Shown here in pieces: positions 247 to 17,465 of a stretch of DNA of 64,000 bases. Origin of the DNA: an uncultured Pseudomonadota bacterium (GTDB taxonomy: Bacteria > Myxococcota_A > UBA796 > GCA-2862545); assembly GCA_913061235.1 (NCBI GenBank), contig CAJXTB010000001.1:496001-560000 (forward strand), written 5' to 3'. The notes under the pieces were generated by a model. It ran no database searches. It had not been told where the DNA came from and saw only the letters and a list, made by a program, of their open reading frames with translations. Both the position numbers and the translations under genes were made by a program. The number at the start of each line of letters is the position of its first letter. Position 1 is the first letter of the stretch.

Positions 247-2079
247 CTACAGTGCAGTGCCTCGGAAGATGTAGATACGGCGCCCGACAACGTCGGACAC
301 CGCCAAGTCGTTGACTCCGTCATCATCCAGGTCGCCGCAGGCAACATCGAAGGGAGCTACGCCTCGCACGATGACAGTCGTGTCGTTTGGATAGCTACTT
401 CCTTGTTCGGTGAAGAAGCTGACTAGTCGACTGATGGGCTCCATAACTCCATCAACAACTTCCCCGAACAGCTCGCTGACAAACACGTCGCCAAACGGTG
501 ACAGGCCACACTGGTCGACCCCTAGAATTGCCCGCTGACCCGCTTGAAGTTGGCCAACGCCGGTCACGCTCTGAACCGACGGATCTAAGTCTGCCAATCC
601 GAAGGGCTGCCGAGACACCGCCCCCAAGTCCAAGAACGCAGGCGTCAGGCCGCCACCGACGGTGAAATTCAGCTGGGCATCGATACCCAGGAACTGGACA
701 GTCACCGGAGTGTTGTCCCCGCCAGGCAATCGCGACCCCATCAATCGAAAGGCAAACTGAGCGTCATCTCCTCCAATGGATGCGGATGTCATTAGCGGAG
801 CAAACGACCGTAACTCCGTATCTAATGAGTTGAACGGTAGGGACAAGGCATGCACGCCAGCGAGGTCATCGACTTCGCCTACAAAGGTCACATGCTTGAT
901 GAATCCATCAAAGCGAGACGCACCAAAGCTAGTCGCACTTCCACCTTCAAAGCTCGCGAAGGGCGAGTTAGCCTCCAGCGGGGAGCCCGTCCAAGGTCCG
1001 GCGTACAAACGAATTCCGCGTTCGAATGTTCCCCCGCCGACAAGGGGACGCGAACGCTCGCTCGACACGAGAAGGCCACTTCCCCAGCTGGGATTGATGC
1101 CATCCACTACCCTAAGTACTTCGCCAAACTCGACCGGAAAGTCCGTATCTGGAGAAGCAACCAGCGTAGGTAGATCAACGTCCGTACGACGGCCCTCTAG
1201 GTCCGTTGGGTTCCACCAAACGGCGACTCTGTCGCCCGCGTCATCTCCAACAACCCACTCAAGTGTGCCTTGATTGTCGAGATTGGCGAAGTCGACGGCT
1301 GCGCCCTCGTCAGTCCTCGCATGGTCTAGGCGAAGGTCGGCGGACCCTGACGGAATCAGGCCGAGCAGAGGACCGAAGTACGCGCTGGTTCGGTAAGGTT
1401 CATGGACCACAAGGTCATCCACTCCATCCGAGTTCAAATCCAACACACGGATGACTGCCCCTTCGGCGGGGAGAAACGCCAGCGCATCCGCAATCTCCCT
1501 CGGACTCTCCAGACCACATTGGTTTGGCGAACTGTCACAGTTGTCATCGATTCCGTTGTTGCAGATCTCAGGAAGACCTGGGCGAACGTTCGGGTCGTTG
1601 TCATTGCAGTCAGGCCCACCCGCACCAGAGATGCCGTCGCCATCGGCGTCAGTGTCGTTGCCATCGCAGTCTTGATCAACACTGTCGTACCAAATCTCCT
1701 GCGCGTTCGGAGACACACCGGCGTTGCCATCATCACAATCCACACCGCCCACTAGGTCCGGCAGCGCCCCAGCTGGGACAACACATCCAACCTGGGGTGT
1801 GCTCCCGGCAACGCCATCACCATCGGAGTCGACATACCAAGTCGACTCCCCCATTCCGCGGTCATCAACCAAACCATCGCAGTTGTCATCTACACCGTTT
1901 CCGCAGACTTCATCTTGATCAGGATTAACCGCAGGATTGTCATCGTCGCAGTCTGAACCATCCAACTGCCACGCTTCGTGGCCGTCACCATCACGGTCCC
2001 GACCTCGCTGAGCCGCTCGGTCGGTCAGGCATGCAGTTGCCAGTAGGCCGAATGCACTTGCTGCGAGCAGGCGGTTCAT
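247..2079 (-). CDS. MopE-type metal-binding lipoprotein with FG-GAP repeats
   Basis: A predicted surface or periplasmic lipoprotein of 610 residues. The N-terminus is a short signal peptide ending LLATAC, with Cys17 as probable lipid site. Residues 28 to about 190 hold Asp/Cys-rich MopE-type modules (GDGxxxxxDCDD, GVDDNCDG, DSDGDG), a pattern known from putative metal-binding proteins of Myxococcota. The rest is beta-rich with Asp-rich calcium-loop motifs (DLNSDGVDDL near the middle, DLDDDGVNDL near the end) typical of FG-GAP/VCBS propeller blades. The ATG at 2079 was chosen over an upstream in-frame start because it opens the signal peptide and overlaps the preceding stop as ATGA. It is thus translationally coupled to the related lipoprotein upstream. 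Ligand and function are unknown. Confidence 0.8.
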   Translation of the reverse strand: MNRLLAASAFGLLATACLTDRAAQRGRDRDGDGHEAWQLDGSDCDDDNPAVNPDQDEVCGNGVDDNCDGLVDDRGMGESTWYVDSDGDGVAGSTPQVGCVVPAGALPDLVGGVDCDDGNAGVSPNAQEIWYDSVDQDCDGNDTDADGDGISGAGGPDCNDNDPNVRPGLPEICNNGIDDNCDSSPNQCGLESPREIADALAFLPAEGAVIRVLDLNSDGVDDLVVHEPYRTSAYFGPLLGLIPSGSADLRLDHARTDEGAAVDFANLDNQGTLEWVVGDDAGDRVAVWWNPTDLEGRRTDVDLPTLVASPDTDFPVEFGEVLRVVDGINPSWGSGLLVSSERSRPLVGGGTFERGIRLYAGPWTGSPLEANSPFASFEGGSATSFGASRFDGFIKHVTFVGEVDDLAGVHALSLPFNSLDTELRSFAPLMTSASIGGDDAQFAFRLMGSRLPGGDNTPVTVQFLGIDAQLNFTVGGGLTPAFLDLGAVSRQPFGLADLDPSVQSVTGVGQLQAGQRAILGVDQCGLSPFGDVFVSELFGEVVDGVMEPISRLVSFFTEQGSSYPNDTTVIVRGVAPFDVACGDLDDDGVNDLAVSDVVGRRIYIFRGTAL

Positions 2080-3752
2080 GGTGCCACCCCCTGCATGACC
2101 TGGGTGAACCCAACCCACTCGTCGCTGACGACCAATTCCTGGCGGCCATCTTCGTCCAAGTCTACGCACGCAATGGCTTCCGCCCCCGCGCCATTCAGGA
2201 CATAGTCTGCCTGCTCTAGCGGCCGCTCATCTCCGACGACAACGTCCTCAAACACCGCGACTCCGTAGTCCAGCCGCGACCAGGGTCTGATGGCATCCGA
2301 CACAAAAAAGCCAACCATGAACTCGGCTGTGCCATCGTCGTCAAAATCGCAGGTTGTGGCGCTCGTAAACATCAAGCCCGGCGTGGAAGAGTCCACCCTA
2401 AGATGTACGGTGCCAGCTCCCGAAAAGTCAGCATCTACAAATGAAAATACTCTGCTCGATGGCGACTGCGTATCGGTCCATGAAACGCCGACGGCTTGAG
2501 TCGCCAAGTGACCGCCTGCGTCCAACACAGGAACCAGGCTGTCGACCACTCCGTCCCAAGACCAAGCGAGCGGCGTCAGCCCCGGCAGCGACCATTCGGT
2601 AAGGCCCCCATCACGATGCACAATCGCTGCGGTAGCGAGCCCTTCGCGGATGACCAGGCCATCCACAGATCCAGGCGCACCAACAATAGCCCCGCTCGCT
2701 ACTGGCACCGTGGACGTTGCGAATTCGAAGTACCGAAGCTGCGGAACACCCGACCGTGGTGCTTCTAAGACCAACCACCCTCCGTTCTGCTCATCAATCC
2801 CCAGCACAGTCGTCTCGATGGGCGCAGTCAGGCTGATATCGACGAGTTCTGAGAACAACTCACGACCATAGAAGGCCTCGGTCAGCGGGCCGGCGACCCA
2901 CCACGCCTGGGAATACCCAGCAACCATCACGTCCCGTTGCCCGTCGCCGTTCACATCACCCAATGCAACCGGTCCAGACAGGTCGTAGGCCGAGGGAAAA
3001 CTGAGACGCGCTCCGCCCGAACCCGACAGGTAGCTGACGTAGTCGTAGCTACGAATCACGTTGACCTCATCGCGGGAGGCAATGGCGAGTGAAGGTCCCT
3101 CATCCGAGAAATCAGCCCCCAACGACAACATCCCGACCTCACTGATCACATGCGTCTCAAGCTCCCCAGCATCCACATCCCCCACCAACCCACACGGCCC
3201 AGCACCACCATCACAGTCGTCATCAATGCCGTTGTTGCAGACTTCGGGCATCCCTGGATTCACGCCAACCAGCATGTCCTCACAGTCATCCCCACCCGCT
3301 GAGACCGCGTCGAACCCGTCGCCATCTTGGTCGCTGTCGTTCCCGTCGCAGTTCTGGTCAATTCCGTCGTACCAAATCTCGGCGACGCCGGGGGACCGTG
3401 ACGCATCAAGGTCATCGCAGTCAGCGCCAACGGCTAGGGATGGGAAGCTGCCCTCGGGTGCGGTGCACGACGATGATGGGGTTGTGCCTGGGAACCCGTC
3501 GCCGTCTTTGTCTGTGTAGAAGGTGACGTCTCCGGTTCCGGCATCATCTACGACACCAGAGCAGTCGTCATCGAGGTTGTTTCCGCAGATCTCGACGGCG
3601 CCGGGGAACACGGCAGCGTTCTCGTCATCACAGTCCGGGCCACCAAGTTGGTCAGACGGAAACCCATCATTGTCTCGGTCATACGCTTCCGAGATTTGTT
3701 CTTGGTAGCACCCGGACAAAACCAAGCACACAGGTATCAGGCTGATTCGCAT
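2076..3752 (-). CDS. MopE-type metal-binding lipoprotein with FG-GAP repeats
   Basis: A 558-residue paralog-like partner of the gene it overlaps. It starts at an ATG with a CGGAG-type ribosome site and has a clean lipobox (LVLSGC, Cys15). Residues 25 to about 190 carry MopE-type Asp/Cys modules (DRDNDG, GPDCDD, NNLDDDCSG, GIDQNCDG, GIDDDCDG). Later residues hold DVNGDGQRDV, DFDDDGTAEF and DLDEDGRQEL motifs, the calcium-binding loops of FG-GAP/VCBS repeats, so a beta-propeller is likely. Its TGA overlaps the next start by four bases, so both are probably made as a pair at the cell surface. Asp-rich loops suggest Ca2+ or other metal binding; the actual role is unknown. Confidence 0.8.
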   Translation of the reverse strand: MRISLIPVCLVLSGCYQEQISEAYDRDNDGFPSDQLGGPDCDDENAAVFPGAVEICGNNLDDDCSGVVDDAGTGDVTFYTDKDGDGFPGTTPSSSCTAPEGSFPSLAVGADCDDLDASRSPGVAEIWYDGIDQNCDGNDSDQDGDGFDAVSAGGDDCEDMLVGVNPGMPEVCNNGIDDDCDGGAGPCGLVGDVDAGELETHVISEVGMLSLGADFSDEGPSLAIASRDEVNVIRSYDYVSYLSGSGGARLSFPSAYDLSGPVALGDVNGDGQRDVMVAGYSQAWWVAGPLTEAFYGRELFSELVDISLTAPIETTVLGIDEQNGGWLVLEAPRSGVPQLRYFEFATSTVPVASGAIVGAPGSVDGLVIREGLATAAIVHRDGGLTEWSLPGLTPLAWSWDGVVDSLVPVLDAGGHLATQAVGVSWTDTQSPSSRVFSFVDADFSGAGTVHLRVDSSTPGLMFTSATTCDFDDDGTAEFMVGFFVSDAIRPWSRLDYGVAVFEDVVVGDERPLEQADYVLNGAGAEAIACVDLDEDGRQELVVSDEWVGFTQVMQGVAP

Positions 3753-3840: not shown

Positions 3841-6800
3841 CTACTTCCCGCGCTCACTCAGCTGACGCAGCTCGTAGGCGCAGCGTGCGTGAGAAATGCG
3901 GTGGTCGGCTAGGTCGGTGAACAATTGGTCCGCCAGGCGACGCCGCATCACGGCATCTAGGGGGTCCCACAGTGCTCGACCGAGCTTTGCGGGGCGGTCG
4001 TACCACCGTGAGCGAACCCGCTTGGGCCCAGTCTCTAGCAGCGCTTCACGGCGGTCGAGTACAGCCTGAACACTCGCGATGGTGCGGTCAACAAAGGTGT
4101 CTTGTGGCAGGCTGTGAAGTGTCGCCAGGGCCTCTCGGGCCACGGGGACGGACCACTCTCGATGCGACTCCATGGCGTCGAGAATCTGCCGTTGACGAGT
4201 GGCGTCGACTTGCCCGAGCAAGGACGCATCTTCAAGAATCGGTCGGCCGTAGACCCACCGGTAGACAAAATCGAGCCCGGTTCCCTTGATGTTCTGGACG
4301 GACATGGCACGAACCACGGTTCCAGCCGGACAGCTGTGGGCGATTCGGTCAATGACGACGTCTCCGCTCGCGTGGGAGTCGTCGACGGTCACAACTTTCG
4401 TCCAAAAGACCTCACGCACTAGGGCGTGCACCGCAGGCTCAGCGGAGCGGCCATGGGCTTGAAGAGCAACGCCGCCAGAACGCCAAGCCAATGCCACCGC
4501 CACCGTCTGCATCCAGTGGCTGACGGAGTCGGCGAGTCCGCTGATTCGGTCGGCAGGGTCTGGGAAGAGGACGTCGGTACCAGACCGACTCCCGCGCAAC
4601 GGTGGAGGTGCAGAGCCCTCTTTGGCCACAGCCTCGTCCACGAGCTTGCGCATGGTGCCCCGCAGAGGTTCTGCAAGACTGAGAGCGTCTTCCACAGACA
4701 GGAGTCGGTTGGGCATGGACTCCATCAGGGCGTCCACGCTGTCCGCCAGCAGGTGTCCAGAGCGCGCCACATCGAGCCGGGCCGTGAGCGTGCGCAGCAT
4801 CCGGCCAGGGTCCACGATGAGCATGTGGTCGGTCAACGCAGCCCAACGCTTCGCGAGCGAGGCAGCACCACCACCCAGCAGATCGAGCTCCTCCACCCAA
4901 CCGTCAAGCGCCTCAGCCATGTAGCCGCGCAATCCCTCTAGGTTGCTGCCAATGAGAACATGACGGTGGGCACGGGCATCGCGCACCAAAATCTCAGCAA
5001 ACACCTGGGACCGCGCCACACGGTCGAAGCGGTTGTTGACCACTGTGACAAGCTGAGTGCCCACATCTACCAGCGGATGGTCGTCAAACCCACACCGCCG
5101 CCAGTTGTTGAGAAAGCCAGTCCGCTCATTCGCGGAGCTTCCGTTGCTGTACTGGAGCACCCGACCTCGATGACGGACGGGCGGGAAGGTCGCGAGAGAC
5201 CCCAGATCTGGAATGACGTACTCACTCATGAGCACCACAGCTTCTTCGGGGTCCAAGCCCAACTCCTCAGCCATGGCAGAGACCAGCGTGACGTTCGCCG
5301 GATGCTCTTGGTGTGGAAACAGCTCGAGCAGGTCCCGCGGCATGCGGTCGACGGAGTCCGACGAGATCTCGACCAGCTCAGTACCACGCTCCTTCGCCCG
5401 GTCTCGCAACACAGGCGTCATCTCGGTCTCGGTGGTCAGGGCGAGGGCGGAGTCCGGCATGAAGTGACTAATGACCGTCGCGACGTCTTCACCGGTAGGC
5501 CCGTGAACGTCTTCATGGTCCGGGTAGGTGTTGGTAATCGTGGAGATGTCGTCTCGCGTCCAGTGACGCTGCAGAATCTCGACGTAGTGAGGCTTGAGCG
5601 CCATGCACTCCCACAAGAACACCGGGCTCTTCAGGGCCGCAGCCGTGCGCAGTGTGGCCGCGTGCTCCCAGATGCTGGCTCGGTCATACGGACGGTACAG
5701 GAACAGCTCAACCGCAGGACGCCCAGGAGGCGAGTGTACCAACATGGCTTCGCAGCCGGTGGTCTTGCAGGTCACTTCAACGCCAAGCCCTTCAAACAAT
5801 GCTGCTTTAAGTCGCTCAACACCGCTCTTTCCACGGGTTCCCCACCCACCAATGACCAGTGGTACTTGCTCGCGTGCGTGGCGCACCTTGTAGTTACTGT
5901 AGGCCAGGCGGCCGAGGAATATGCCGGTAATACCCAGTGTTACGGCGAACAGCTCACTGGAGTCTGACGACGCATACACCTGGGCCCAGAGCTCGGCGAG
6001 TAGAGGTGTAGGGAGCAATGGCCCAACGAATGCCGCGTTCTCCAGCATCATTGGCGGCGCGACCTCGGGGACGACGTCCAGCAATGCCAACGGGTAGTGC
6101 CCGACGGACTCGAAGGACACTCGGTAGCCAAGTTCGTGTAGGCGGTCGACGTACGCAGAGCGCCCGGCGACGTCTTGGGCAGTCAGCGCCGCTCGGCGCA
6201 GGCGGTCCAGGGTGCGGGGGTTGCCGGTAATGGCAGCCCGAGCCCGCTGGCGAGCGGTACGTTCGGACGGCGGCGTCAGTGTTGTGACCCCTTCCTCGGT
6301 GACCAAGGTCAGCTCGCCTTGCTTGAGCGCGTCGACCAAGTCGTCGAGCATCGGCAGCCACGGGGCCCAGCCATTCCACTGCGGAACGAGCACAGCACGC
6401 CCGGGAACCCCCGTTGGAGAAACCTCAGCCATTCGCCTGGATGGAACACGAATGTTTCCTGCCCAATGCAAGCCAGACAGGTGGTCTCCTCCTTGACGAC
6501 GACCTGGATCCGGGTGCCGCAAGGCGTCCAACAGCCTCCACAACCGCGGCACTCGACGCGTTCCACGTGTCACGCGAACCCGATTGTCGGACAGCGTCTC
6601 AAGCGCGAACCCACGCCCTGTTCGAGCCAGAGGAAGCAGTGCGGTGGCGAGCTGACGAGCCGTCTCTCCCGACCGTAGACGCAGCTCGCGTACTTCGTCT
6701 GGGCCCAGATCACCGACCTCAAGCGCAGCCCCGTCTAGGGCGGGTGTCTCGACGGCCAGCGTGAGCACAGCGCGGACCGAAGCGGCACTGTCGTCCGATG

Positions 6801-7722
6801 CAAGGTCTCGCGCTAGTTGATGTAAGTCTGGGCGGTCCGACGCCAGCAATGCCTGTACAAACCGGCAACGAACGAGCTCGGAGGGGTCCACGGAGACCGC
6901 ATCCACAGCCTCTTCCGCATGCCCCATCTCGACCATTCGGACGCCCACCGCAGCACGCACGAGAAAGTCCTTATGGGCGGACGTTCCACGACGCATGCGC
7001 ATGGCCATGCGCTCCACGCCATCGGGTTGCGCCGCCAACAGCGGCAAGACCCGACGCGACGCAAGGGGCTCGGGACTCGGATGCTCGATGAGACTCAACA
7101 GACGTGCCTCAATGCGCTCGGGTACAGCCGTGTCCACCCCATCAATGTCTTGGCCATGACGCCGAATCGTCGCCATCCACTCGGCAATCGTGGTGATGGC
7201 AAGTCGGCGAGTCGGCCGGTCAACCTCCTCCATGAACTCCACGACAGCCGCGAACGGGGCGCCTCGCAGCGGTAGGCCCTTCATCAGTCGCAGGACCAGC
7301 CGCGCGTCGATAATCACCCGGTCTACAGACGCGTCAATGCGCTCCAACAGGGCGTCTGCGTCTAGCCAACGCCGTAGCGCTCTAAGGTCTCCACGACGGT
7401 CCCGGCCGCTGCGTGTCGCCTCGATCTCTTTTACCAAGACGGTCCGGAGAGCTGCGGCATCCGGCGCGCCATTTGCGGCATCGACGAACACAGCCCTACG
7501 TTCAGCCAGCGCATTGCGCTGCTGGCGAATGCGGGAGAGTTCTTCACCCAATGCCAACGCCAACGCCCGCTCGCCACGAGTCTTCAGGCCCGCATCCAAG
7601 CGCTCCGCAAGGCTGACCAATGCCGCTCGTCGAAGACGAATGACGATGGGCGGAAGTCCAGCAATCAACCACTGATGCGCGGCCGGAATCGACTCTGCGG
7701 ATGCGCGAATTGTCGGGTTCAT
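3841..7722 (-). CDS. PgsB/CapB-like amide ligase with helical-repeat N-terminus
   Basis: Predicted ATP-dependent amide ligase of the Mur-ligase superfamily, closest by eye to the poly-gamma-glutamate synthase subunit PgsB/CapB. The ATP loop GTRGKS is at residues 628-633, followed by KTTG (653), ECMALKP (705), TNTYPDHEDVHGPT (730) and NGSSAN/NNRFDRV segments that line up with PgsB. Family members are usually about 400 residues; this one has 1293. About 600 residues before the ligase look all-helical and HEAT-like, and a hydrophobic stretch (about 590-607) precedes the P-loop, where PgsB has its membrane segment. About 270 extra residues follow. The ATG overlaps the upstream stop (ATGA), and it is the last gene of the operon. 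The substrate could be glutamate or another amino acid; polymer chemistry is inferred only from family and neighbours. Confidence 0.85.
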   Translation of the reverse strand: MNPTIRASAESIPAAHQWLIAGLPPIVIRLRRAALVSLAERLDAGLKTRGERALALALGEELSRIRQQRNALAERRAVFVDAANGAPDAAALRTVLVKEIEATRSGRDRRGDLRALRRWLDADALLERIDASVDRVIIDARLVLRLMKGLPLRGAPFAAVVEFMEEVDRPTRRLAITTIAEWMATIRRHGQDIDGVDTAVPERIEARLLSLIEHPSPEPLASRRVLPLLAAQPDGVERMAMRMRRGTSAHKDFLVRAAVGVRMVEMGHAEEAVDAVSVDPSELVRCRFVQALLASDRPDLHQLARDLASDDSAASVRAVLTLAVETPALDGAALEVGDLGPDEVRELRLRSGETARQLATALLPLARTGRGFALETLSDNRVRVTRGTRRVPRLWRLLDALRHPDPGRRQGGDHLSGLHWAGNIRVPSRRMAEVSPTGVPGRAVLVPQWNGWAPWLPMLDDLVDALKQGELTLVTEEGVTTLTPPSERTARQRARAAITGNPRTLDRLRRAALTAQDVAGRSAYVDRLHELGYRVSFESVGHYPLALLDVVPEVAPPMMLENAAFVGPLLPTPLLAELWAQVYASSDSSELFAVTLGITGIFLGRLAYSNYKVRHAREQVPLVIGGWGTRGKSGVERLKAALFEGLGVEVTCKTTGCEAMLVHSPPGRPAVELFLYRPYDRASIWEHAATLRTAAALKSPVFLWECMALKPHYVEILQRHWTRDDISTITNTYPDHEDVHGPTGEDVATVISHFMPDSALALTTETEMTPVLRDRAKERGTELVEISSDSVDRMPRDLLELFPHQEHPANVTLVSAMAEELGLDPEEAVVLMSEYVIPDLGSLATFPPVRHRGRVLQYSNGSSANERTGFLNNWRRCGFDDHPLVDVGTQLVTVVNNRFDRVARSQVFAEILVRDARAHRHVLIGSNLEGLRGYMAEALDGWVEELDLLGGGAASLAKRWAALTDHMLIVDPGRMLRTLTARLDVARSGHLLADSVDALMESMPNRLLSVEDALSLAEPLRGTMRKLVDEAVAKEGSAPPPLRGSRSGTDVLFPDPADRISGLADSVSHWMQTVAVALAWRSGGVALQAHGRSAEPAVHALVREVFWTKVVTVDDSHASGDVVIDRIAHSCPAGTVVRAMSVQNIKGTGLDFVYRWVYGRPILEDASLLGQVDATRQRQILDAMESHREWSVPVAREALATLHSLPQDTFVDRTIASVQAVLDRREALLETGPKRVRSRWYDRPAKLGRALWDPLDAVMRRRLADQLFTDLADHRISHARCAYELRQLSERGK

Positions 7723-10700
7723 CGACGCTCCTGAGGAAAGTCGCGAAGGTCGCGGAACACGGTCCGGGCGATGGGGTAGTCGAGCATGCCACGACTGCGG
7801 CTAATGTCCCACGTCAGCGAGAGTCCGCCCTCCACAGTCTTGCCCAGCGGCAACCAAGCACCGTTGAGACGAAGCCCCACTCGCTGAGACGCAGATGGCC
7901 ACAGGGCATACTCGGCACTGCCGCGCACAGCAGGACGCCAGTTGGTCCGTGCGCGGTGACGGTCACGGAAGCGCACCCCCAGCTCGGTTGACCCGGTGAG
8001 CAGCAGACGCTCGCGAATGAAGAGGTTGCCCGTCAGCCGCGCTTCCACTCGGTCCACGGTGGCCTCAGAGTTGCTCACTGCAAGCAGACGTCCACGAAGT
8101 CGCGCATCCGACGCCGGACGCCATGTCACCTGACCGCCAGCCGCCAATCCCCAGGGGTGGTCCTTGCCAAAACGAGTCCAAGCACGTGGGTCAACGCGCG
8201 CTGGAGCCGACCGCGACCACAGTCCACCGAAAGCGGCAACAAAGAAATCGGCTCGGGTCTCGACGTTGCCGGCAAGTCGCTGCAGCCACTCACCGTCCAC
8301 TCGCGCATGCGACGCATCACCAGCGGTCCACGCGCGCGCACCAAGCTCGAACCAAGTACGACCACCAGTACGCCACAGTCGGCCACGCACACCCGCAGCA
8401 GGCGTACCGTCCAGTGACGCTCGACCGGTCAGGCCAACCTCGCCGTACACCTTAGGAGCGAGAACACGCATCAGCGCCATATCCAGATGTAAGGCACGAT
8501 AGCTGCGGGCCAAATCTCGCTCACCAATGGCATCATTCTCTAGACGCGTGGTCAGACGTAGGGTGCCGGGCGGGCCAGCGAGACGGCGGTCAATGCGGGT
8601 GCCACGCCGAACCTCACCAATCCAGTCCCGAGACGCCAGCGCGAGTGGGCCCACCGCTTCTGGAGCGACATACGCGACCGGCTCCGGCAGCGGCGGCGGT
8701 GCGAGTTCGGGGGGCAAGACCTCCCAACGAGCGATGTCGACCCAGGACGTGCTGGGGCCGTCGATGGCCAACGGAACCGAGCCATCCTCCAGCGTCGCAA
8801 CGGCAATTTCGTCAACGACCTCGTATTCCTGCTCACCCAAGCGAACCGTGACGGGTCCTCCGCGTTGCACACGCACTCGAATCAGAGCCGGCCCAGCCAC
8901 TGCAGTACGAACCCCTCCACCGATTCGGTGGGCGACGACATCGACCTTGGGCGGAATGACCACGCCATCGCGCTCAACACGCACCACAACAGCGTTTGTC
9001 GCCGTCTCTCGAGGGTCGATAGTGAGCGTGTGCGTGCCGCTATCAAGGGCAAACTTGACCGTCCGAATCCGACCGCGCCTGACCCGAATCATGCGTTCGA
9101 CGTCGTCGACCTGAAGGTCAACCCGGCAGTCAGGACCTCCGACAGTCATCGCTTCGTCTTGGCACAACAGGTGGATAGCCGTGTTGCTCGCTCCAACAAA
9201 CTCCAACCGGTCACGCTTGGTGCCGCGAAGCACCGCGTAGGTGCTGGATGGCCACGGAGCCCCGAGCATCACTTCGCGGGCGATAGCCGCTGGAGAGGCG
9301 TCCACATCGGGCCCCGAGCGGGTCAACGTCTCTCGAATGGCACCGCCATGCTGGTCCACGCGAGACACCCGGCGCCAGCGACCGGTGCGCAGTACCGCCT
9401 TTCCGGTTGCCTCCGCACCGACGCCGCCGCGAGTAGCCGCCGTCCAAGCCTCATAGGCGCGTCCCTGTTCAAGCAGCAGCTCAGCGGCGCGTGCAAACAC
9501 CGGGTAGGCGGTCTCCGGCGGCAGTGACTCAGCCGCACGCAACCAGCCCTCCGCGTCTGCATTTTCTGGAGGAAGCCTGCCTGCGAAGGCGAGCGCCGCC
9601 TCGGCGGTCAAGGGCCCGGATGTCTCGGCGTTGAGTCCAGCGGTCAGCGTTGTGGACGCCAAAACCCGCTGTCCTTCATTAATGTCGGGAAGCGAGGAGA
9701 TGTAGGAGAGCTCACGGCGCGCCGAGCCCGTCAGCCCCATTGCTACCAACGCGGACGCGCGCGTCAGCCGAAGGTAGGCCTCTTCAACCCCGTGAATATC
9801 AGGCTCGAGGACCAACCGCTGGGACGCATAGCGCAGGGCTTCGACCGGTTCTTCACCAATCTGCGGAAGCGAAAGGCCTTGCGGCTCAATGGCCCGCTCC
9901 ATGGCCATTGCGACCGTGACACCGTCGGGACCACGAATGTAGACCTGGCTCGCGAAGGGCCCGACCTCAATGACCGAATAGTGGTCGGTGGTCCGGACCG
10001 TCCACGCGCGACCGTCGTCCGTCCCCACAATGAGTGGTACATCTGCTTGACTGGTTGAAATTGCGATACGGGCTGGAAAACCAGGCTCTGGTAGCGCCCA
10101 CTCTCCCGGAAGCGCAGACACCGGAACCTCACGCAGAGGCGTTCCACCCACTGTGTCGCTGCCATCAATGGCCCACAGCGTTCCCGAGTCCACCAACAGC
10201 TCGTGGGTGCCGGCGATAACCGCTTCATCCAAGCGCCCGAGCCCGTAGCGAGGCTCACCATTCACTCGGTAGCGCGTGGGCTCTTCGGCAAGCAACCGCA
10301 GACGTCCCAGTCCGTTGGCGTCGTCTTCAACGTCGGTGAAGGCCTGGTCACCGGCATCGATGCGGACCCGAACAATGCCACCAAGAGCGGTCTCACTGCG
10401 GACAACACCGGCAATCTCCGCAGGAAAGACCGATGTCCAGCGGGTTGTGGCCCCACCCGGAACCGGCTGCTGAGCCAGGCGACGGGCCCACGCATCTCTT
10501 GGGCGCACTGCAGAAGGCTCCAGCAACTCCAGATTCACCGCAACGTCTTCAACACGGACCGTCCAATCAAGTGGCTCGTTGACCAGTCGTTCAGCGAGCA
10601 AGTCGCGGCGCAGTGCCGAGCGGTGCGACCAGGAGAGACGTCCTAGTGGGGTCAGCTCGTCCAGTGTGTCGATAGCGACCGCTTTTTGGTCGGGATTACC

Positions 10701-11690
10701 AGCCACCCAGCGGTACTGAGCGAGATTGTCAAAGGCGCCGTCGAGAAGCGGTGTTGCCAGACTCCAAGCGTCTGCCTGCAGAGTGAGAGCGGACGACTCC
10801 AGGCTCGCAATCTCGCCCTGCGGCTCGTACAGCGCGTCCAGGGCAGACCGGCGCCACACCGGCAGCCGCATGCGCTCGACATGCGTCTCTAAGAGCGTCG
10901 GACCGTCCAGCACCGTGACCGAGACACGGTGGGTTCCTGGGGGCAGCACCACTTCTGCCGTTCTACGCCATCCGAATCCAGGGCGGTCCGGATTGGGGCC
11001 TGACCGACGGGACAGTCGTTCCACCAGAATACCGTCTACGGTAATGCGAAGCTCAACCGGCCCATAGGCATCTGCATCGCCCAATATCGGCGAGCCGTGT
11101 ACGACCAGAACACCCGGTCCACGCACTTCACCGCGGAACACGCCGTCGGCCTTTACTTCAGCGTCCAAGGTGTCTGCGATGAAGTGGTCCGACAGCCCTC
11201 GGGCACGGACCTGCTCCAGCTCCAGCCAGGCAGCGGCAGTACAAAAGCGAGGGTCATCGTACCCCGTCTCCCGCATGGCACTGCGTCGCGCCAGCCAAAC
11301 TCGGTCCAGGCCTTCGAGCTCACCCGGAGGCTCCGGCAGTAGACGCTCTCCCCTACACCACTCGGCGACATCGGTCGCATAGCGAGACCAGGCGGCTGGC
11401 TCACCCGCGTCGTCTTCTTCCCACTTTTGAACACGGATGCGACGGTCCGCTTCAAGGGTGAGCGTGCGACTACGGTCGGACGCAGGAACCACCCACGTTC
11501 CACGTGGACCCGCAGTGAGCGGCACGCTGACGCCATCTTCCGTCAGCGAGACCACAGCTCGCTCGGGGTGTACGCGAATGAGCGCCGCTTCGCCCAGAGA
11601 GATGTCGAGCGAAATCTCACGAGCCGGTCCTTCGCGCCCGGCGTCGACCCACCCAGCAAGAGCGGCACTGATCAGCAGCAACGCTGTCAT
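7719..11690 (-). CDS. Large exported protein ending in a probable outer-membrane beta-barrel
   Basis: A 1323-residue protein with a short N-terminal signal peptide (about residues 1-12, ending LAG). The first half is beta-rich and unrecognised. Residues about 610-770 are helical and repeat-like, resembling TPRs. The last 270 or so residues alternate polar and aromatic/hydrophobic positions in strand-length blocks (VYGEVGLTGRA, TWFELGARAW, VGLRLNGAWL, VEGGLSLTWD), as in outer-membrane barrels. It overlaps its neighbours on both sides by four bases, between the predicted amidohydrolase and the PgsB-like ligase. By analogy with other export systems it could carry a surface polymer across the outer membrane. 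That role is inferred from context; no export family was recognised. Confidence 0.65.
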   Translation of the reverse strand: MTALLLISAALAGWVDAGREGPAREISLDISLGEAALIRVHPERAVVSLTEDGVSVPLTAGPRGTWVVPASDRSRTLTLEADRRIRVQKWEEDDAGEPAAWSRYATDVAEWCRGERLLPEPPGELEGLDRVWLARRSAMRETGYDDPRFCTAAAWLELEQVRARGLSDHFIADTLDAEVKADGVFRGEVRGPGVLVVHGSPILGDADAYGPVELRITVDGILVERLSRRSGPNPDRPGFGWRRTAEVVLPPGTHRVSVTVLDGPTLLETHVERMRLPVWRRSALDALYEPQGEIASLESSALTLQADAWSLATPLLDGAFDNLAQYRWVAGNPDQKAVAIDTLDELTPLGRLSWSHRSALRRDLLAERLVNEPLDWTVRVEDVAVNLELLEPSAVRPRDAWARRLAQQPVPGGATTRWTSVFPAEIAGVVRSETALGGIVRVRIDAGDQAFTDVEDDANGLGRLRLLAEEPTRYRVNGEPRYGLGRLDEAVIAGTHELLVDSGTLWAIDGSDTVGGTPLREVPVSALPGEWALPEPGFPARIAISTSQADVPLIVGTDDGRAWTVRTTDHYSVIEVGPFASQVYIRGPDGVTVAMAMERAIEPQGLSLPQIGEEPVEALRYASQRLVLEPDIHGVEEAYLRLTRASALVAMGLTGSARRELSYISSLPDINEGQRVLASTTLTAGLNAETSGPLTAEAALAFAGRLPPENADAEGWLRAAESLPPETAYPVFARAAELLLEQGRAYEAWTAATRGGVGAEATGKAVLRTGRWRRVSRVDQHGGAIRETLTRSGPDVDASPAAIAREVMLGAPWPSSTYAVLRGTKRDRLEFVGASNTAIHLLCQDEAMTVGGPDCRVDLQVDDVERMIRVRRGRIRTVKFALDSGTHTLTIDPRETATNAVVVRVERDGVVIPPKVDVVAHRIGGGVRTAVAGPALIRVRVQRGGPVTVRLGEQEYEVVDEIAVATLEDGSVPLAIDGPSTSWVDIARWEVLPPELAPPPLPEPVAYVAPEAVGPLALASRDWIGEVRRGTRIDRRLAGPPGTLRLTTRLENDAIGERDLARSYRALHLDMALMRVLAPKVYGEVGLTGRASLDGTPAAGVRGRLWRTGGRTWFELGARAWTAGDASHARVDGEWLQRLAGNVETRADFFVAAFGGLWSRSAPARVDPRAWTRFGKDHPWGLAAGGQVTWRPASDARLRGRLLAVSNSEATVDRVEARLTGNLFIRERLLLTGSTELGVRFRDRHRARTNWRPAVRGSAEYALWPSASQRVGLRLNGAWLPLGKTVEGGLSLTWDISRSRGMLDYPIARTVFRDLRDFPQERR

Positions 11691-12520
11691 CGGGACTCCG
11701 CCACATCAACGATACGCTCGATAAGCGCGGTAGCTGCAGCGTCATCTTCACGCAGAGTCGCTCGCGAATCACGCGACAACTCCAAGTGAATGAACCGAGA
11801 TTGCCCGGAGACGGCCCGCCCTTGCGCATTGCGGGTCGCGGCGAGCAGCGGCACCTCAGTTCCCTTGCGGACCTCTCCGCCAAGCACCGCAACAACAGCG
11901 GAGGACACGCGGTCAACCATCACATCCGGCTGAAGCGTCTCGCCGTCGCTAATGACGGCAGAGAACTCGCCATGGCGCTTGGAGAACCCATGGACCTCCA
12001 CCACAAGCGCATCGGACATGCCGTCCGTAGCGCCTATAGTCATGGATTGAAAGGCCGTATCGACACGGTGAGCCACATCCGCGTCGCGACGACGCTCACC
12101 TTCGGTTCCGCCAAACCGATGCGCGGTATTGATGATGAGGACGCGCGCATACCCTTGGTCGAACCAGTCGCACACAATGCGTCCGGTGTTCAAGTCGAAC
12201 CAACCATGTGGGGCAACCAAGGCCAGCGGCGGTACATCACGTCCCAACCGCACGGCAACAAGCCCGAGTCCCGAGTTCACCGCACCGTGCAGCGTGACCA
12301 CCCGAACCCCGCGTTGGCAGACAAGCTTCAGCTCGTCGCACCGTTCGTCAAAGTCCGACGGCACACGCCCCGTTCCGGCATAGCCGACGACGCGGGTGAG
12401 AAACGCTTGAAGATGCGCCCGTTCAGTCACAGTGGCACCGACCATCGCGGCGTCATCCCGCAGGGCCTCCACCTGCTCCCACGTCCCCGCGTGTGCGAGC
12501 AGCGCCAGCCAGACAATCAC
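11687..12520 (-). CDS. Predicted Zn-dependent amidohydrolase (poly-gamma-glutamate hydrolase / N-formylglutamate amidohydrolase-like)
   Basis: A 277-residue predicted exported hydrolase. The start was set at the GTG at 12520 because it forms a GTGA overlap with the upstream stop and opens directly on a short signal-like sequence (IVWLALLAHAG). Candidate zinc ligands follow the order seen in N-formylglutamate amidohydrolases and phage-type poly-gamma-glutamate hydrolases: APHGWFD (His105, Asp109), DADVAHR (146-152), EVHGF (His177) and HLELSRDSR (Glu247). Both families cut amide bonds at glutamate, which fits a place inside a PgsB/PgsC-like operon. It might trim, release or recycle the polymer. 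Overall similarity looks distant, so the substrate is uncertain. Confidence 0.6.
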   Translation of the reverse strand: MIVWLALLAHAGTWEQVEALRDDAAMVGATVTERAHLQAFLTRVVGYAGTGRVPSDFDERCDELKLVCQRGVRVVTLHGAVNSGLGLVAVRLGRDVPPLALVAPHGWFDLNTGRIVCDWFDQGYARVLIINTAHRFGGTEGERRRDADVAHRVDTAFQSMTIGATDGMSDALVVEVHGFSKRHGEFSAVISDGETLQPDVMVDRVSSAVVAVLGGEVRKGTEVPLLAATRNAQGRAVSGQSRFIHLELSRDSRATLREDDAAATALIERIVDVAESR

Positions 12521-14814
12521 TCGCCCACCTCCGGCCAGTGCAGCGTACGAAACAGCGTAGGTGTCTCCCATGTCGCGTCAAACCGCACGTAAACGGGCGT
12601 ACCATCTGGTGATGTGGCCCGAACCTCGATGGTGTGCTCCCCTTCCGACAAGTCCTCTCCCATCACCAAGCGCATGCCCGTCCATCGGTCGATCGCGCCG
12701 CCATTGTCCAACAGCCCTCCACCGGTGACCTCGTCTGGCACGTAGTACCGCGCGAACGCCGTGTGCTGTGCCACGGTCTGAGTACTCGCTTGCCGGATAC
12801 CCCCGTCTACCTCGGTAATGATGGTGGGCGCTTGCGAACCACTCGCGGTGTAAGCGCGTAGATAGAGCGTCTGCACACCGTCCAGCTCTGGGATGCGCAG
12901 CGACACCGTACGGTCGTCTACCCGGTACAGCGTTCGGTGAGCCCAACGCTCGCCTCCCCCCGGGTGCTTGGCGAACCACATACCGCTGGGTGCTGTGAAC
13001 ATGCAGGTCTGGCTACCCGCAGGCAATCCGTAGAACCGCAGCATGCCGCGGCTCGAGCGCACGCGCTGTGAAGAGGTCACCCCACCGCAGCGGAGCGACG
13101 CGACCTCGCCGACCTTCGAGCGCGACAGCCTGTGTTCAAGCTTGATGATTCCGTCATCTGGGACCACAAGCTGCTGACGCGACCCCATACGGTTTCGGTG
13201 CCAGCGCTGAAACGGGCCCTCTGATTGAGAGGGTTCGAGCATTGGAAACCGTGGAGGACTAAACGACGGGAACACCGTGTCCGTGTCGATGGGTTGGTTC
13301 GCGAGTAGGGCGTCGCGACCGGCCCCCTTCGGCTCAAACCGCACCGTGGCGATGAGTGTCTTGACCCGCTCAGCCCGAATCGCCGCCGCCAAGTCTTCCG
13401 GAGCCAAGGCCACCCACGGTGCCAGCTCCCACGGCACGTAGCGCGCGCCAAAGTCGTTCTCTAGGCCGTAGACATCCGGTTGGATGCCGTCGACTCCTAG
13501 CGGAACGAGGAACCGTACATCTACGTCTTGCGGGGCGGTCCACTCAATGGTTCGCGTAGCCTGCGGGTGAAGGACAAATCGCGTGGTCGGCTCGCTGGCG
13601 TCGCCATCTTCGGCATCTGTGTACCGCTCGAAGGGGGCCTGTAGCCACGGTACGAGCACCTCGCCTTCGGCCAGCTTGTTGTCGTCACCATCCCGCGCAA
13701 TCCAGTTCATCCGAACCGGCTCCCCAGGGTGTGACGGCCGTGCATCCACGCGCAACAGACCCGTAGGTGTGCCACTGTCCACGGGAATGCGTAGCGGAGG
13801 CTGCTCCTCACCCAGTCGGAACAACCGGATTCTGCGTTCTTCGGGTCGAAGACGGATGTCCGAGGGTAGCGGAGGGTCTCCCCAACGCATTGGCTGCTCT
13901 GTCGGCGTAAGAATAGGATTGACAGGGACTGTGGAGTTGTTGAACACCCGCAGACTCCATGTCTCCCCTTCCGGCACCACAAAGGTATCGCCAACCGTGA
14001 CCGTCTCGGAAGCGTCACTGATGACATCAATGCGCAGTGCATCATTGACCGGTGTACCCAGACTCGCTTGAACGGCACCGGCTTGTAGTTGGGCAGGTCC
14101 AATCACATTAAACGCAGTCGCTTGACCTGGTTCTAGACGGCGCAACGGAACGGTCTCGACCCCCTTCTCTGGCCGCGGACGACGCAAGACCGCCACGGTG
14201 TCGCCAACGAGAAAGTCCGGCGACAAGGACCGTCGACGCCACTTGCTGTACCAAGCAAACTCGTTGGTAGTGAGGGCTGGGTAGGGACGCGGCCATGTCA
14301 GGGCGAGAAGTCCACCGGGCTCTGTTCCACCCGTCACTTCAAAGATACGCAGCAATAGTCGCGTGTTTTCGGGCAGTCCAACAGGGGCGACCTCGAGAAG
14401 CCCACCGCCGTCGCTAAATCCAGAGTCTAGGTCAATCACACGACTATCGGTCACTCGCCGACCGGGCCGAGACGACCGAATCAACGGACGTCCGTCCGGG
14501 TCTACAAGCACGCGGCTGACCACGTTGTGGGTCCAGGCCACCGTCTCGCCGCTGCTGCGTAGCAATGACAAGCCCACCCCGAAGTTCCACTGCCGAAGCG
14601 GGTCGAGCGATTGGTTCTCGGGGACTTCTAAGTGGGCGACAATGCGAATGGCATCATTGCTGTCTACACGTACTCGAAAGCCACCGTCATTGCTCACATC
14701 CAACAGTACCAAGCGCTCCTCGACGAGAGAGCCTTCAGCATCTCTACGAGGCACGAGCAGCAACGACACCGACACAACCAGCGCCCAGCCAACCACCAAT
14801 AGACGACCCCTCAT
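12517..14814 (-). CDS. Large envelope protein with N-terminal signal anchor, polyamide-type operon
   Basis: A 765-residue protein with a single N-terminal hydrophobic segment (LLVVGWALVVSVSLLLV) that is either a signal peptide or an anchor. The rest is beta-rich and probably periplasmic. No catalytic motif or named domain was recognised. The ATG at 14814 was preferred to an in-frame start 30 bases upstream because it gives an ATGA overlap with the PgsC-like gene and puts the hydrophobic segment at the extreme N-terminus. In Gram-positive poly-gamma-glutamate operons the third subunit (PgsA/CapA) is also a single-pass extracytoplasmic protein. This one shows none of the metallophosphoesterase motifs of CapA, so it could be a functional replacement, but only position supports that. 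Confidence 0.6.
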   Translation of the reverse strand: MRGRLLVVGWALVVSVSLLLVPRRDAEGSLVEERLVLLDVSNDGGFRVRVDSNDAIRIVAHLEVPENQSLDPLRQWNFGVGLSLLRSSGETVAWTHNVVSRVLVDPDGRPLIRSSRPGRRVTDSRVIDLDSGFSDGGGLLEVAPVGLPENTRLLLRIFEVTGGTEPGGLLALTWPRPYPALTTNEFAWYSKWRRRSLSPDFLVGDTVAVLRRPRPEKGVETVPLRRLEPGQATAFNVIGPAQLQAGAVQASLGTPVNDALRIDVISDASETVTVGDTFVVPEGETWSLRVFNNSTVPVNPILTPTEQPMRWGDPPLPSDIRLRPEERRIRLFRLGEEQPPLRIPVDSGTPTGLLRVDARPSHPGEPVRMNWIARDGDDNKLAEGEVLVPWLQAPFERYTDAEDGDASEPTTRFVLHPQATRTIEWTAPQDVDVRFLVPLGVDGIQPDVYGLENDFGARYVPWELAPWVALAPEDLAAAIRAERVKTLIATVRFEPKGAGRDALLANQPIDTDTVFPSFSPPRFPMLEPSQSEGPFQRWHRNRMGSRQQLVVPDDGIIKLEHRLSRSKVGEVASLRCGGVTSSQRVRSSRGMLRFYGLPAGSQTCMFTAPSGMWFAKHPGGGERWAHRTLYRVDDRTVSLRIPELDGVQTLYLRAYTASGSQAPTIITEVDGGIRQASTQTVAQHTAFARYYVPDEVTGGGLLDNGGAIDRWTGMRLVMGEDLSEGEHTIEVRATSPDGTPVYVRFDATWETPTLFRTLHWPEVGE

Positions 14815-17465
14815 TGGGCCCGCCAAACGGCTGGAAGCGTCCACTCACCCAAGTTTACCGACTGCCCCGAGTATCCGAGGGGAGCCACACCAACACGCCC
14901 GTTGTGCTGCACCACAATCAGCGCACGACCAGTAATGGGGTCGCTCGTCGCGCTGACGGTTGCCGAAGGCCCGAGGTCGGCGACCATGCGTGCCAAAGCC
15001 CCTGGATGGCCGGTTGTGGCGTAGCGAGCAAGGGTCTGCCAGGTGTCGTCTAGGCCACCATCCGTAAGTGGCTGGCCTCGAATCAGGCCGCGAACATCCA
15101 ACTCTTCGACCTGAATATCGGAAGCGGCGAGAGCGAGCGCAAAGGGAGAGCCAGGCTCCAATCCCGAGTAGGTCTGACGGAGACGCTGACTGACCCAGAC
15201 TGTGGCTAGCGCACCGTCAAACGGCTCCACAGAGGCGCGACGTCGGTCGCCACCATCATGAAAGCGGGCTCGGACGGATGACGCATCACCGTACACAACG
15301 GAGAACCCAGCATCTTCCACTAAAGATGTCGCCAAGCGCCCCACTTTCCGGGGCTCATGGACCGGAGAGACCGCGCGACCGTCGTACACAACGGCATCTC
15401 CGCCGGCCAAGTCGTCGTACCGCAATCGCGCAATCGACACGCCTTGTAGCCCGGACTGCTCCATGGCCAACACCCGCCACCACACACGAGCAATGTCGGT
15501 AGCTTCGAAGTCTTGGACCACCATTAGCGCACGAGCATCCGACGTCTCCGCCCACGATGCACCGACAGCAACCAGGTCTTCAAAAGGCTCGCGGACCTCA
15601 ACAACCACCGGTGCTTCGCCATCCAACAGCATGATTCCTACGGCGTAAGGCCCCTCTTCCGGTGGCACGACACGCACGCCGTCCTCGGTCCACTGAAGCT
15701 GCACACCAACACGAAACGCCCAGGCGCCAGCAATAGCGCGCCAGCGAATGTCGTCATGTGCTCGCAGGGCCGGCCATGCGACACCCCGCTCATAGGCCGA
15801 CAACCACGTTGCTGTGTCGACAACAGACCGACGAGGCGGCTGTAGACCGACCATGAGCTCAGACGCCGCAAACGCAATGCCATTGTCGTCCAAGACCAGC
15901 TCGGCGTAGTCTCCTTGTGACACCCGCTCGACCAAGTCCATCACCGCCGGTGTGAGACCCGCTGGACCCGTCCATGACGACTGTTCGCCCACAGACACGC
16001 GAATGCGCGTGGATTGGCGGCGATGCACACCTTGAACGTAGGTCGGGTCCCCAAGAACTACGCGAGACGCACCCACGCGCTCCGCAATGGAGAGTGCCGC
16101 CTCAGCCACGCCAGGACGCCACGCCTCTTCCGCCCAGACCTCAACGCCATCACGTCCATCTTTACGCCAAAGAACACTCGCAATGCCGGTGCCACTACCG
16201 TCGAGAACGAAGCCATCCGCATACTCGTCAACCCGCAGCGAACGGCCTCTGTACGGACGTCCTGAGTTGGCCAATGCGATTGCAATCGCGGCTTCATCCC
16301 GCACATCACGGCGAACTACCTGCATGGGCTGGACCACCGCTTCCATCGCCACCATCCAGGCCGGACCCGGACGGTCGCCGGACTCGTCGAGCATGGCCTC
16401 GCCTACGTCTGGAGAGATGAACGAGAGCAGCGCTCCAAGGGTGGTTCCGAGCAAAAACCCAGACAGAGACACCAATATTGTAGGCACCAAGATGCGGAGA
16501 ACCTGGCCCTGACGCCACACACGCGTAGCCAGCAGTGCCGGAAGCAAGTAGCCGAATCCAAACAGGTCAGACGTCGTAAACGACGGCCATATGCCCTGGC
16601 CAACGGAGGCTATGAGCAGCTTGACGGCATAGCTGACGGTAAATGCCAGCACAATCGGTCTCATCCCGGACAAGTTCACCGTCTTCAGTGGCCGTACGGA
16701 AACGAGACCGCGAACAATCGCGACGACAACCAGCACTTCAGCGAAGGTCGCCATGACCGTAATCGGGTCCAACCAGGCGATAGCCAGCAGACCACAGACA
16801 ATGATGCCACCGAAGTCCCATCCGAATCGGACCGTTGCATGGGACGCGAGGAAGGCGCCGACGACCAGCAGCAGATAGACCCGGGGCGCCCCTAAGAAGC
16901 TCCACTCCAAGTCGGCATAGGTCAGCTCTAACGTGACCAACGATAGATTGGTAAACGGAAGCAAGACGAAGCGCAGCAGTAGGAACACGGCAAGAACCGG
17001 TAGCGCTACAATCGGCACACCTGCTGCAATTCCAGGCTTCCAAAGAGCGTTCGCGGTGAGCGGCACCAAGACCAACCCAATCGAGTGCCACCCATCTGCA
17101 CGGTCGAATCCGGCCGCAAATAACAGGTCCGGACCGGGCCAGACCTCTGCTGCTAAGCGCACAAAGATGCTTGCCAAGATGATGAGGAAGAAGCGGTCTC
17201 GGCCGAAAGCGATGTCGAGCGGCAACCACTTCTGAAGCCGCCGGCCCACAAAGTCCGCGACCAAGTACGTAGCGATTGCCTCGACTGCGACAACCAAGGC
17301 CGCATCTGGGCGAATCGCAAGAATGGCCCCCAAATAGCCAGGGACAACCAAGCCTGTCGTCGGCCAGCCGAAGCGTTCCGTGAGCCACCACAGCAACAGC
17401 ACTCCCACAAAGACTGCGGTGAGCAGACTGTCGTCGATGTAGGCGCTGGGGAAGACCGGAAGCAT
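14811..17465 (-). CDS. Tandem PgsC/CapC-like membrane protein with large C-terminal domain
   Basis: Predicted inner-membrane subunit of a polyamide synthase, 884 residues. PgsC/CapC is normally about 150 residues. Here residues about 12-165 contain a full copy, with the hallmark TERFGWPTTGLVVPGYL at 29-45 and a later LVPLTANALWKPG. Residues about 190-345 contain a degenerate second copy (RFGWDFGGIIVCGLLAI at 213-229, LLPALLATRVWRQGQ near 307-321). Together they give eight or more membrane segments. The remaining 530 or so residues are soluble and unrecognised. The ATG at 17465 was chosen because the longer frame runs antisense into thrA and is basic and low in hydrophobic residues. It heads the five-gene operon and diverges from thrA across 75 bases. 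Confidence 0.85.
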   Translation of the reverse strand: MLPVFPSAYIDDSLLTAVFVGVLLLWWLTERFGWPTTGLVVPGYLGAILAIRPDAALVVAVEAIATYLVADFVGRRLQKWLPLDIAFGRDRFFLIILASIFVRLAAEVWPGPDLLFAAGFDRADGWHSIGLVLVPLTANALWKPGIAAGVPIVALPVLAVFLLLRFVLLPFTNLSLVTLELTYADLEWSFLGAPRVYLLLVVGAFLASHATVRFGWDFGGIIVCGLLAIAWLDPITVMATFAEVLVVVAIVRGLVSVRPLKTVNLSGMRPIVLAFTVSYAVKLLIASVGQGIWPSFTTSDLFGFGYLLPALLATRVWRQGQVLRILVPTILVSLSGFLLGTTLGALLSFISPDVGEAMLDESGDRPGPAWMVAMEAVVQPMQVVRRDVRDEAAIAIALANSGRPYRGRSLRVDEYADGFVLDGSGTGIASVLWRKDGRDGVEVWAEEAWRPGVAEAALSIAERVGASRVVLGDPTYVQGVHRRQSTRIRVSVGEQSSWTGPAGLTPAVMDLVERVSQGDYAELVLDDNGIAFAASELMVGLQPPRRSVVDTATWLSAYERGVAWPALRAHDDIRWRAIAGAWAFRVGVQLQWTEDGVRVVPPEEGPYAVGIMLLDGEAPVVVEVREPFEDLVAVGASWAETSDARALMVVQDFEATDIARVWWRVLAMEQSGLQGVSIARLRYDDLAGGDAVVYDGRAVSPVHEPRKVGRLATSLVEDAGFSVVYGDASSVRARFHDGGDRRRASVEPFDGALATVWVSQRLRQTYSGLEPGSPFALALAASDIQVEELDVRGLIRGQPLTDGGLDDTWQTLARYATTGHPGALARMVADLGPSATVSATSDPITGRALIVVQHNGRVGVAPLGYSGQSVNLGEWTLPAVWRAQ

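Follow-up and report, generated by a model that had tools for sequence, protein, structure and literature searches.

What is made, and sent where, by five closely coupled genes in which a relative of a poly-gamma-glutamate (PGA) ligase is combined with a predicted outer-membrane barrel? This question is raised by a locus in the stretch of DNA analysed here (64,000 nucleotides, called the window), for which the first-pass annotation had described five minus-strand genes joined by 4-base overlaps. The open reading frames, their coordinates and all four junctions were verified, with start sites set from the junctions and from homologues, and the genes, named C, S, H, O and B in order of transcription, span positions 17465 to 3841 as follows.

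14811..17465, minus strand: gene C, a membrane protein of 884 amino acids with tandem PgsC/CapC-type units and, at its C-terminus, a degenerate hydrolase-like domain (PF14102 matched twice)
12517..14814, minus strand: gene S, a signal-anchored extracytoplasmic protein, 765 amino acids from the ATG at 14814 (one N-terminal hydrophobic segment)
11687..12520, minus strand: gene H, a predicted periplasmic hydrolase of the M14-like / N-formylglutamate amidohydrolase-like kind, 277 amino acids from the GTG at 12520 (AF2 fold)
7719..11690, minus strand: gene O, a signal peptide, TPR-like helices and a C-terminal 14-strand outer-membrane barrel, 1323 amino acids (AF2 model of residues 560-1323)
3841..7722, minus strand: gene B, a large PgsB-type amide ligase, 1293 amino acids (TIGR04012 match and P-loop motifs)
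247-2169 and 2076-3752, minus strand: surface-type proteins of the MopE/FG-GAP kind, downstream of B (sequence motifs)

The overlap is ATGA at three junctions (C-S, H-O and O-B) and GTGA at the fourth (S-H), with O and B starting at 11690 and 7722, respectively. A longer reading frame for C, reaching 17765, was rejected as an artefact, since the frame stays open across a divergent aspartokinase/homoserine dehydrogenase gene that starts at 17541; the true start is the ATG at 17465. Chance overlap of reading frames was likewise ruled out by the conservation of the set over phyla. At the other end, B is followed by an 88-base gap and then by the two tandem surface-type proteins, which carry MopE metal-binding motifs and FG-GAP-like repeats; a similar protein also follows the operon at one other locus (L036). 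Scans for promoters and terminators yielded no more than chance, the Rfam and PHROGs searches returned no match, and no sequence match to solved structures (PDB) was obtained for any of the five proteins. We consider it likely that this operon makes, trims and exports an amide-linked amino-acid polymer in a diderm cell, for which PGA or a close relative would be the best candidate, and the evidence is set out below.

B had been annotated as a PgsB-like ligase, and profile searches, with canonical PgsB as control, indeed placed it nearest to PgsB and not to MurC/D/E or FolC. Its core matched TIGR04012 (PgsB) with 179.2 bits (E 1e-52) over 322 of the 380 model positions, a score that is below the equivalog cut-off of 222.7 bits.

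4915..5922, minus strand: PgsB/Mur-ligase core of B, residues 601-936 (TIGR04012 match)

Among enzyme families, B matched PgsB only, and no Mur or FolC model of NCBIfam was found at E 0.1, whereas canonical PgsB matches several of them weakly; a MurC/D/E or FolC identity was therefore rejected. The P-loop of B, GGWGTRGKS, aligns with that of canonical PgsB, and the two proteins further share the motifs GTRGKS, KTTG, ECMAL and PDHxD and a tail of the form NIKGxG or NIGGxG, such that core homology, P-loop and conserved motifs together assign B to the PgsB-like Mur ligase superfamily. The alignment also revealed a long N-terminal region and a large insert before the tail, and B is roughly three times the size of the canonical PgsB of related genomes (423-439 amino acids). 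In a tree of the ligases, 88 large members fell on one side of two canonical PgsB sequences, on a long branch, a result that documents separation and not a root, because just two canonical sequences and no outgroup were included.

The membrane protein C, previously described as PgsC-like, was found to contain two PF14102 (CapC) domains, totalling 131.5 bits and thus passing the curated cut-off of 27, while against the PgsC equivalog TIGR04011 it scored 69.3 bits, under the cut-off of 96.45.

17022..17408, minus strand: CapC domain 1 of C (PF14102, 79 bits)
16500..16862, minus strand: CapC domain 2 of C (PF14102, 71 bits)

About 10 hydrophobic segments are located in residues 7-340, and the whole protein is some six times as large as the canonical PgsC of related genomes (150 amino acids), so that the annotated several-fold excess in size of both ligase and PgsC subunit was borne out. 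The tandem arrangement is not an isolated case; a phylum-wide survey revealed two separate classes of CapC protein, a one-domain class with frames mostly of 150-700 amino acids and mostly more than 100 bits, and a tandem class with frames of about 750-1,900 amino acids and 50-92 bits per domain. Considering that B and C both score below the equivalog cut-offs, they are to be regarded as relatives of PgsB and PgsC rather than certified members, and glutamate specificity cannot be assumed.

For H, which had been proposed to be a glutamyl-amide hydrolase, neither Pfam nor NCBIfam gave a match, and Pfam at E 1 was empty for all eight H proteins searched, including for the PGA hydrolase and N-formylglutamate amidohydrolase families. 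Five weak matches of the H profile to solved structures were discarded as meaningless, as they amounted to a single 17-residue motif in repeat proteins. The fold was more informative. The AF2 model of H (8 sequences; pLDDT 86, pTM 0.88) was best matched by the N-formylglutamate amidohydrolase 2q7s (VIA-align Z 14.2 over 177 residues, 2.6 A), followed by 2odf (Z 14.0) and by the poly-gamma-glutamate hydrolases 21dc, 5onj and 3a9l (Z 12.8-12.9), against a carboxypeptidase background of about 11. Residues H105, D109, H177 and E247 are kept in 28 of 28 H sequences, with E in place of D once, and this pattern, read from the sequences, would fit a His-Asp/Glu-His metal site in which a Glu acts as the base. 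Fold and putative metal-site residues thus agree in pointing to an M14-like / N-formylglutamate amidohydrolase enzyme, with a glutamyl amide as the presumed substrate, and the hydrophobic N-terminus would be consistent with a signal peptide.

These scores bear directly on the nature of the monomer. PgsB, PghP, YndL and N-formylglutamate amidohydrolase act on glutamyl substrates, and the kinship of B and H to such enzymes argues for glutamate. Nonetheless, B lies under the PgsB cut-off (179 vs 222.7 bits) and on a long branch, and the fold of H resembles N-formylglutamate amidohydrolase (Z 14.2) at least as closely as it does the PGA hydrolases (Z about 12.8), so that another polyamide, for example of aspartate, of a diamino acid or of mixed composition, made by an enzyme that is PgsB-like in mechanism only, is a real if lesser possibility; it would be compatible with a make-trim-export operon and would differ in the product.

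A second hydrolase-like domain was encountered at the C-terminus of C. A single-family H profile gave no significant match to the tail of the window's own C, the link being seen in some relatives only, and a family-to-family comparison was therefore required. In hhalign, the C tail family matched the H family with a probability of 99.3 (E 3e-20 for the single comparison) over 242 columns, and the His/Glu positions of H are lost in it.

15156..15839, minus strand: degenerate hydrolase-like domain of C, residues ~543-770 (hhalign against the H family)

By this comparison, the hydrolase domain is present in C as well, in degenerate form, and since the H-type His/Glu residues are missing, this tail probably serves for binding and not for cutting.

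The annotated outer-membrane barrel of O was recovered by AF2 as a confident C-terminal barrel of 14 strands. The model of residues 560-1323 (19 sequences, pLDDT 80) consists of helical hairpins, a beta domain and then the 14 long strands, although the relative placement of these domains is unreliable at a pTM of 0.45.

9390..9848, minus strand: TPR-like helical region of O, residues ~615-767 (AF2 helices)
7800..8564, minus strand: outer-membrane barrel of O, residues ~1043-1297 (14 strands, pLDDT mostly >85)

Weak TPR matches were present in the helical part of a few of the 19 O relatives. PgaA, PelB and BcsC carry polysaccharides across the outer membrane, and O has their layout, i.e., a barrel behind TPR-like helices; the fold scores, which cover the barrel only, were VIA-align Z 15.3 for PelB, 15.2 for BcsC and 15.1 for PgaA, and were higher for OmpG (19.0) and CymA (18.9). 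As these nearest matches are general porins, polymer transport by O is proposed from context. Neither the O profile nor its members matched the PgaA/PelB/BcsC families by sequence in PDB or Pfam. In Methylovulum and Crenothrix, O is split into a protein of 1058-1119 amino acids and a separate barrel protein of 716-736 amino acids, which marks a natural domain boundary. Three alphaproteobacterial loci (L103, L113, L122) have C, H and B with no barrel protein between them, and there export may use another channel. Protein S, lastly, showed the single N-terminal hydrophobic segment implied by its description as signal-anchored; it is conserved within the operon and gave no Pfam, NCBIfam or PDB sequence match above cut-off.

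The first-pass annotation also implied that the five-gene order would be kept in related genomes, and the five genes were indeed found together, in Myxococcota and in other phyla. Relatives of B occur in 15 of 58 near genomes, and the C-S-H-O-B arrangement was seen within the taxonomic order, in part truncated where contigs end or with one of the genes not recognised. When two peptide motifs were run against 84,980 species genomes, 361 relatives were retrieved, of which 80 were kept. As the loci were picked by B, the following counts describe B-bearing genomes only: CapC matches over cut-off were found in 28 of 29 named genomes; C precedes B on the same strand by 12.6-15.5 kb in 19 of 28 genomes and, in two alphaproteobacteria, by 5.4 kb; and profiles identified the complete order at 14 of the 29 loci inspected (Methylovulum and Crenothrix with their split O included), while six further loci have a right-sized unrecognised reading frame in place of S or O. 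Rearranged or split sets, or sets at contig ends, were found in Sorangium, at the second locus of Sulfidibacter, in Planctomycetota and Blastocatellia MAGs, in Silicimonas and in Thiomargarita. The Sorangium set is divided into the C-S part and the ligase, which share a strand but are separated by 76-103 kb. The full order recurs in Myxococcota, Gamma- and Betaproteobacteria, Nitrospirota and Acidobacteriota, and relatives were also found in Alphaproteobacteria, Thermodesulfobacteriota and Planctomycetota. The gene set is widespread rather than peculiar to the window genome, and its carriers include the cultured genera Corallococcus, Myxococcus, Sorangium, Halomonas, Marinobacter, Methylovulum and Ramlibacter.

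No sixth downstream gene is common to all loci, except that a PgsA/CapA-like protein is found in some. Pfam did not detect PF09587 (PgsA/CapA) in the five operon genes, and by this measure the operon is not of the pgsBCA type. By coordinates, however, a PF09587 protein of about 730-880 amino acids adjoins the locus in eight genomes. This large protein combines PF09587 with a carboxypeptidase-regulatory-like domain (an operon-adjacent copy is L044:12781-14967), and the window genome encodes a full-length ortholog on another contig (G000:C9:104858-106933, E 1.3e-130) as well as a second, more distant PF09587 gene. Leaving out weak short matches to other PF09587 proteins, it is present in 11 of the 15 near genomes with B and in 1 of the 43 without (Fisher p 6.6e-8, a value that ignores kinship and incomplete assemblies). 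It is probably a sixth component, acting in trans in the window genome.

This co-occurrence, together with the homology of B and C to PgsB and PgsC, would also fit an ordinary PGA capsule, i.e., a divergent pgsBCA/cap operon with extra domains that makes plain PGA as in Bacillus by a mechanism that is not new. CapB and CapC profile searches have reported PGA-type capsules in most bacterial phyla, under a CapsuleFinder definition that requires both CapB and CapC and treats CapA and CapE as accessory (PMC5542703); part of the present set may therefore already count as a PGA capsule. Homologues of both are in the operon by Pfam and NCBIfam models, the CapsuleFinder definition being based on profiles of its own (PMC5542703). 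The genomes themselves make this account unlikely. Two of them combine the large system with a canonical small PgsB of full score in a separate operon (447-449 bits against TIGR04012); in one the canonical PgsB lies beside a canonical PgsC of 125 bits (L155, 7238-9029, coding-strand coordinates), and in the other it is close to a TIGR04332 protein and to a CapC domain scoring 115 bits (L156, 8055-10926, coding-strand coordinates). Two polyamide synthases thus coexist in one genome. In addition, the tree separates the large ligases as a single clade from both canonical sequences, and three components of the operon, the barrel exporter, S and the hydrolase, are extra and go unmatched by any Pfam model. 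Quite improbable is a short oligo-amino-acid tag on a surface lipid, sugar or protein acceptor instead of a free long polymer, with H trimming it and O placing or exporting the acceptor, since the long N-terminal region and Mur-core insert of B, absent from PgsB, and an acceptor-binding role of S and the C tail would suit it, but the conserved five include no acceptor-handling gene and the sole recurrent neighbours seen are response-regulator-like genes and the PgsA-like protein.

A polymer made, trimmed and exported by the operon is the best explanation because the homologies of B and C, the coupling at four junctions, the order kept over phyla, the fold and conserved residues of H, the barrel of O with its TPR-like helices and the co-occurring PgsA/CapA-like protein all converge on it. 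Counted against it are the scores of B and C under the cut-offs, the closeness of the barrel to OmpG and CymA, the absence of a family match for S, the three alphaproteobacterial loci without O beside C, H and B, and the split locus of Sorangium. In mechanistic terms, B would be a membrane-associated, ATP-dependent Mur-type ligase that adds amino acids singly, an activity suggested by the observed homology and motifs, and the two fused PgsC units of C, by analogy with PgsC, would form the inner-membrane partner where the chain is made or passed on. S may combine with the inactive hydrolase-like tail of C into a periplasmic scaffold that grips the chain, and H, as a metal-dependent amidohydrolase with the chain as its presumed substrate, could cut or edit it in the periplasm, setting its length or releasing it; this role is based on the predicted fold and the conserved residues of H. 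The chain would then cross the outer membrane through the barrel of O, the TPR part facing the periplasm as in PgaA, PelB and BcsC, probably with assistance from the PgsA/CapA-like protein encoded elsewhere in the window genome. The identity of the polymer, its export and its location on the surface are what we infer from these parts taken together.

To our knowledge, and as far as we searched, the movement of a long amino-acid polymer across the outer membrane of a diderm has no description, and for such a machine the operon supplies a complete set of candidates, in which channel, synthase and trimming enzyme can each be named. The open-access literature, subscription journals being outside the scope, contained no description of the operon, the tandem PgsC, the pseudo-hydrolase or the barrel. 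On balance, we lean towards a class of polyamide secretion in diderms that is widespread and so far undescribed, in which a giant PgsB/tandem-PgsC synthase, a PgaA/BcsC-like channel and a periplasmic trimming amidase are encoded in one operon. It would do for polyamides what synthase-dependent secretion does for exopolysaccharides, possibly with a polymer other than PGA. Since the gene set is present in many Gram-negative phyla, amino-acid polymer coats of this origin are probably found on many bacteria; if true, Gram-negative bacteria would bear polyamide coats far more often than is known, and polyamide biomaterials could be drawn from a new source. Its presence in cultured genera makes the proposal testable by gene deletion and polymer analysis.

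Comparison with known systems confirmed that gene order and domain content differ from the known operons, as originally noted. With the PgsBC(A)/CapBC(A) of Bacillus, the operon shares a Mur-type ligase with the P-loop GTRGKS and a PgsC-type membrane protein in one operon, along with a co-occurring PgsA/CapA-like protein; it differs in its ligase (about threefold larger) and PgsC (about sixfold), its tandem PgsC units with a pseudo-hydrolase tail, its reversed order, the added S, H and O, and its scores under the equivalog cut-offs. Gram-negative PGA operons with PgsB, PgsC and TIGR04332, such as that of L156, likewise combine PgsB and PgsC in a diderm, but theirs are small and above cut-off, and the TIGR04332 protein is additional. 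H resembles PghP/YndL and N-formylglutamate amidohydrolase in fold and in its likely His-Asp/Glu-His metal site and Glu base, and differs in being only 11-16% identical in structural alignment, in having no Pfam or NCBIfam match, and in being a predicted secreted protein whose gene lies inside a synthesis operon. As in the PgaA/PelB/BcsC exporters, TPR-like helices precede a barrel that is encoded with an inner-membrane synthase and a periplasmic hydrolase or modifying enzyme; in contrast to them, O has no sequence match, its 14-strand barrel is nearest to OmpG and CymA, and the synthase is an amide ligase where theirs is a glycosyltransferase. Overall, the PgsB/PgsC polyamide synthase is of a known kind, and its coupling to a predicted diderm export line is new.
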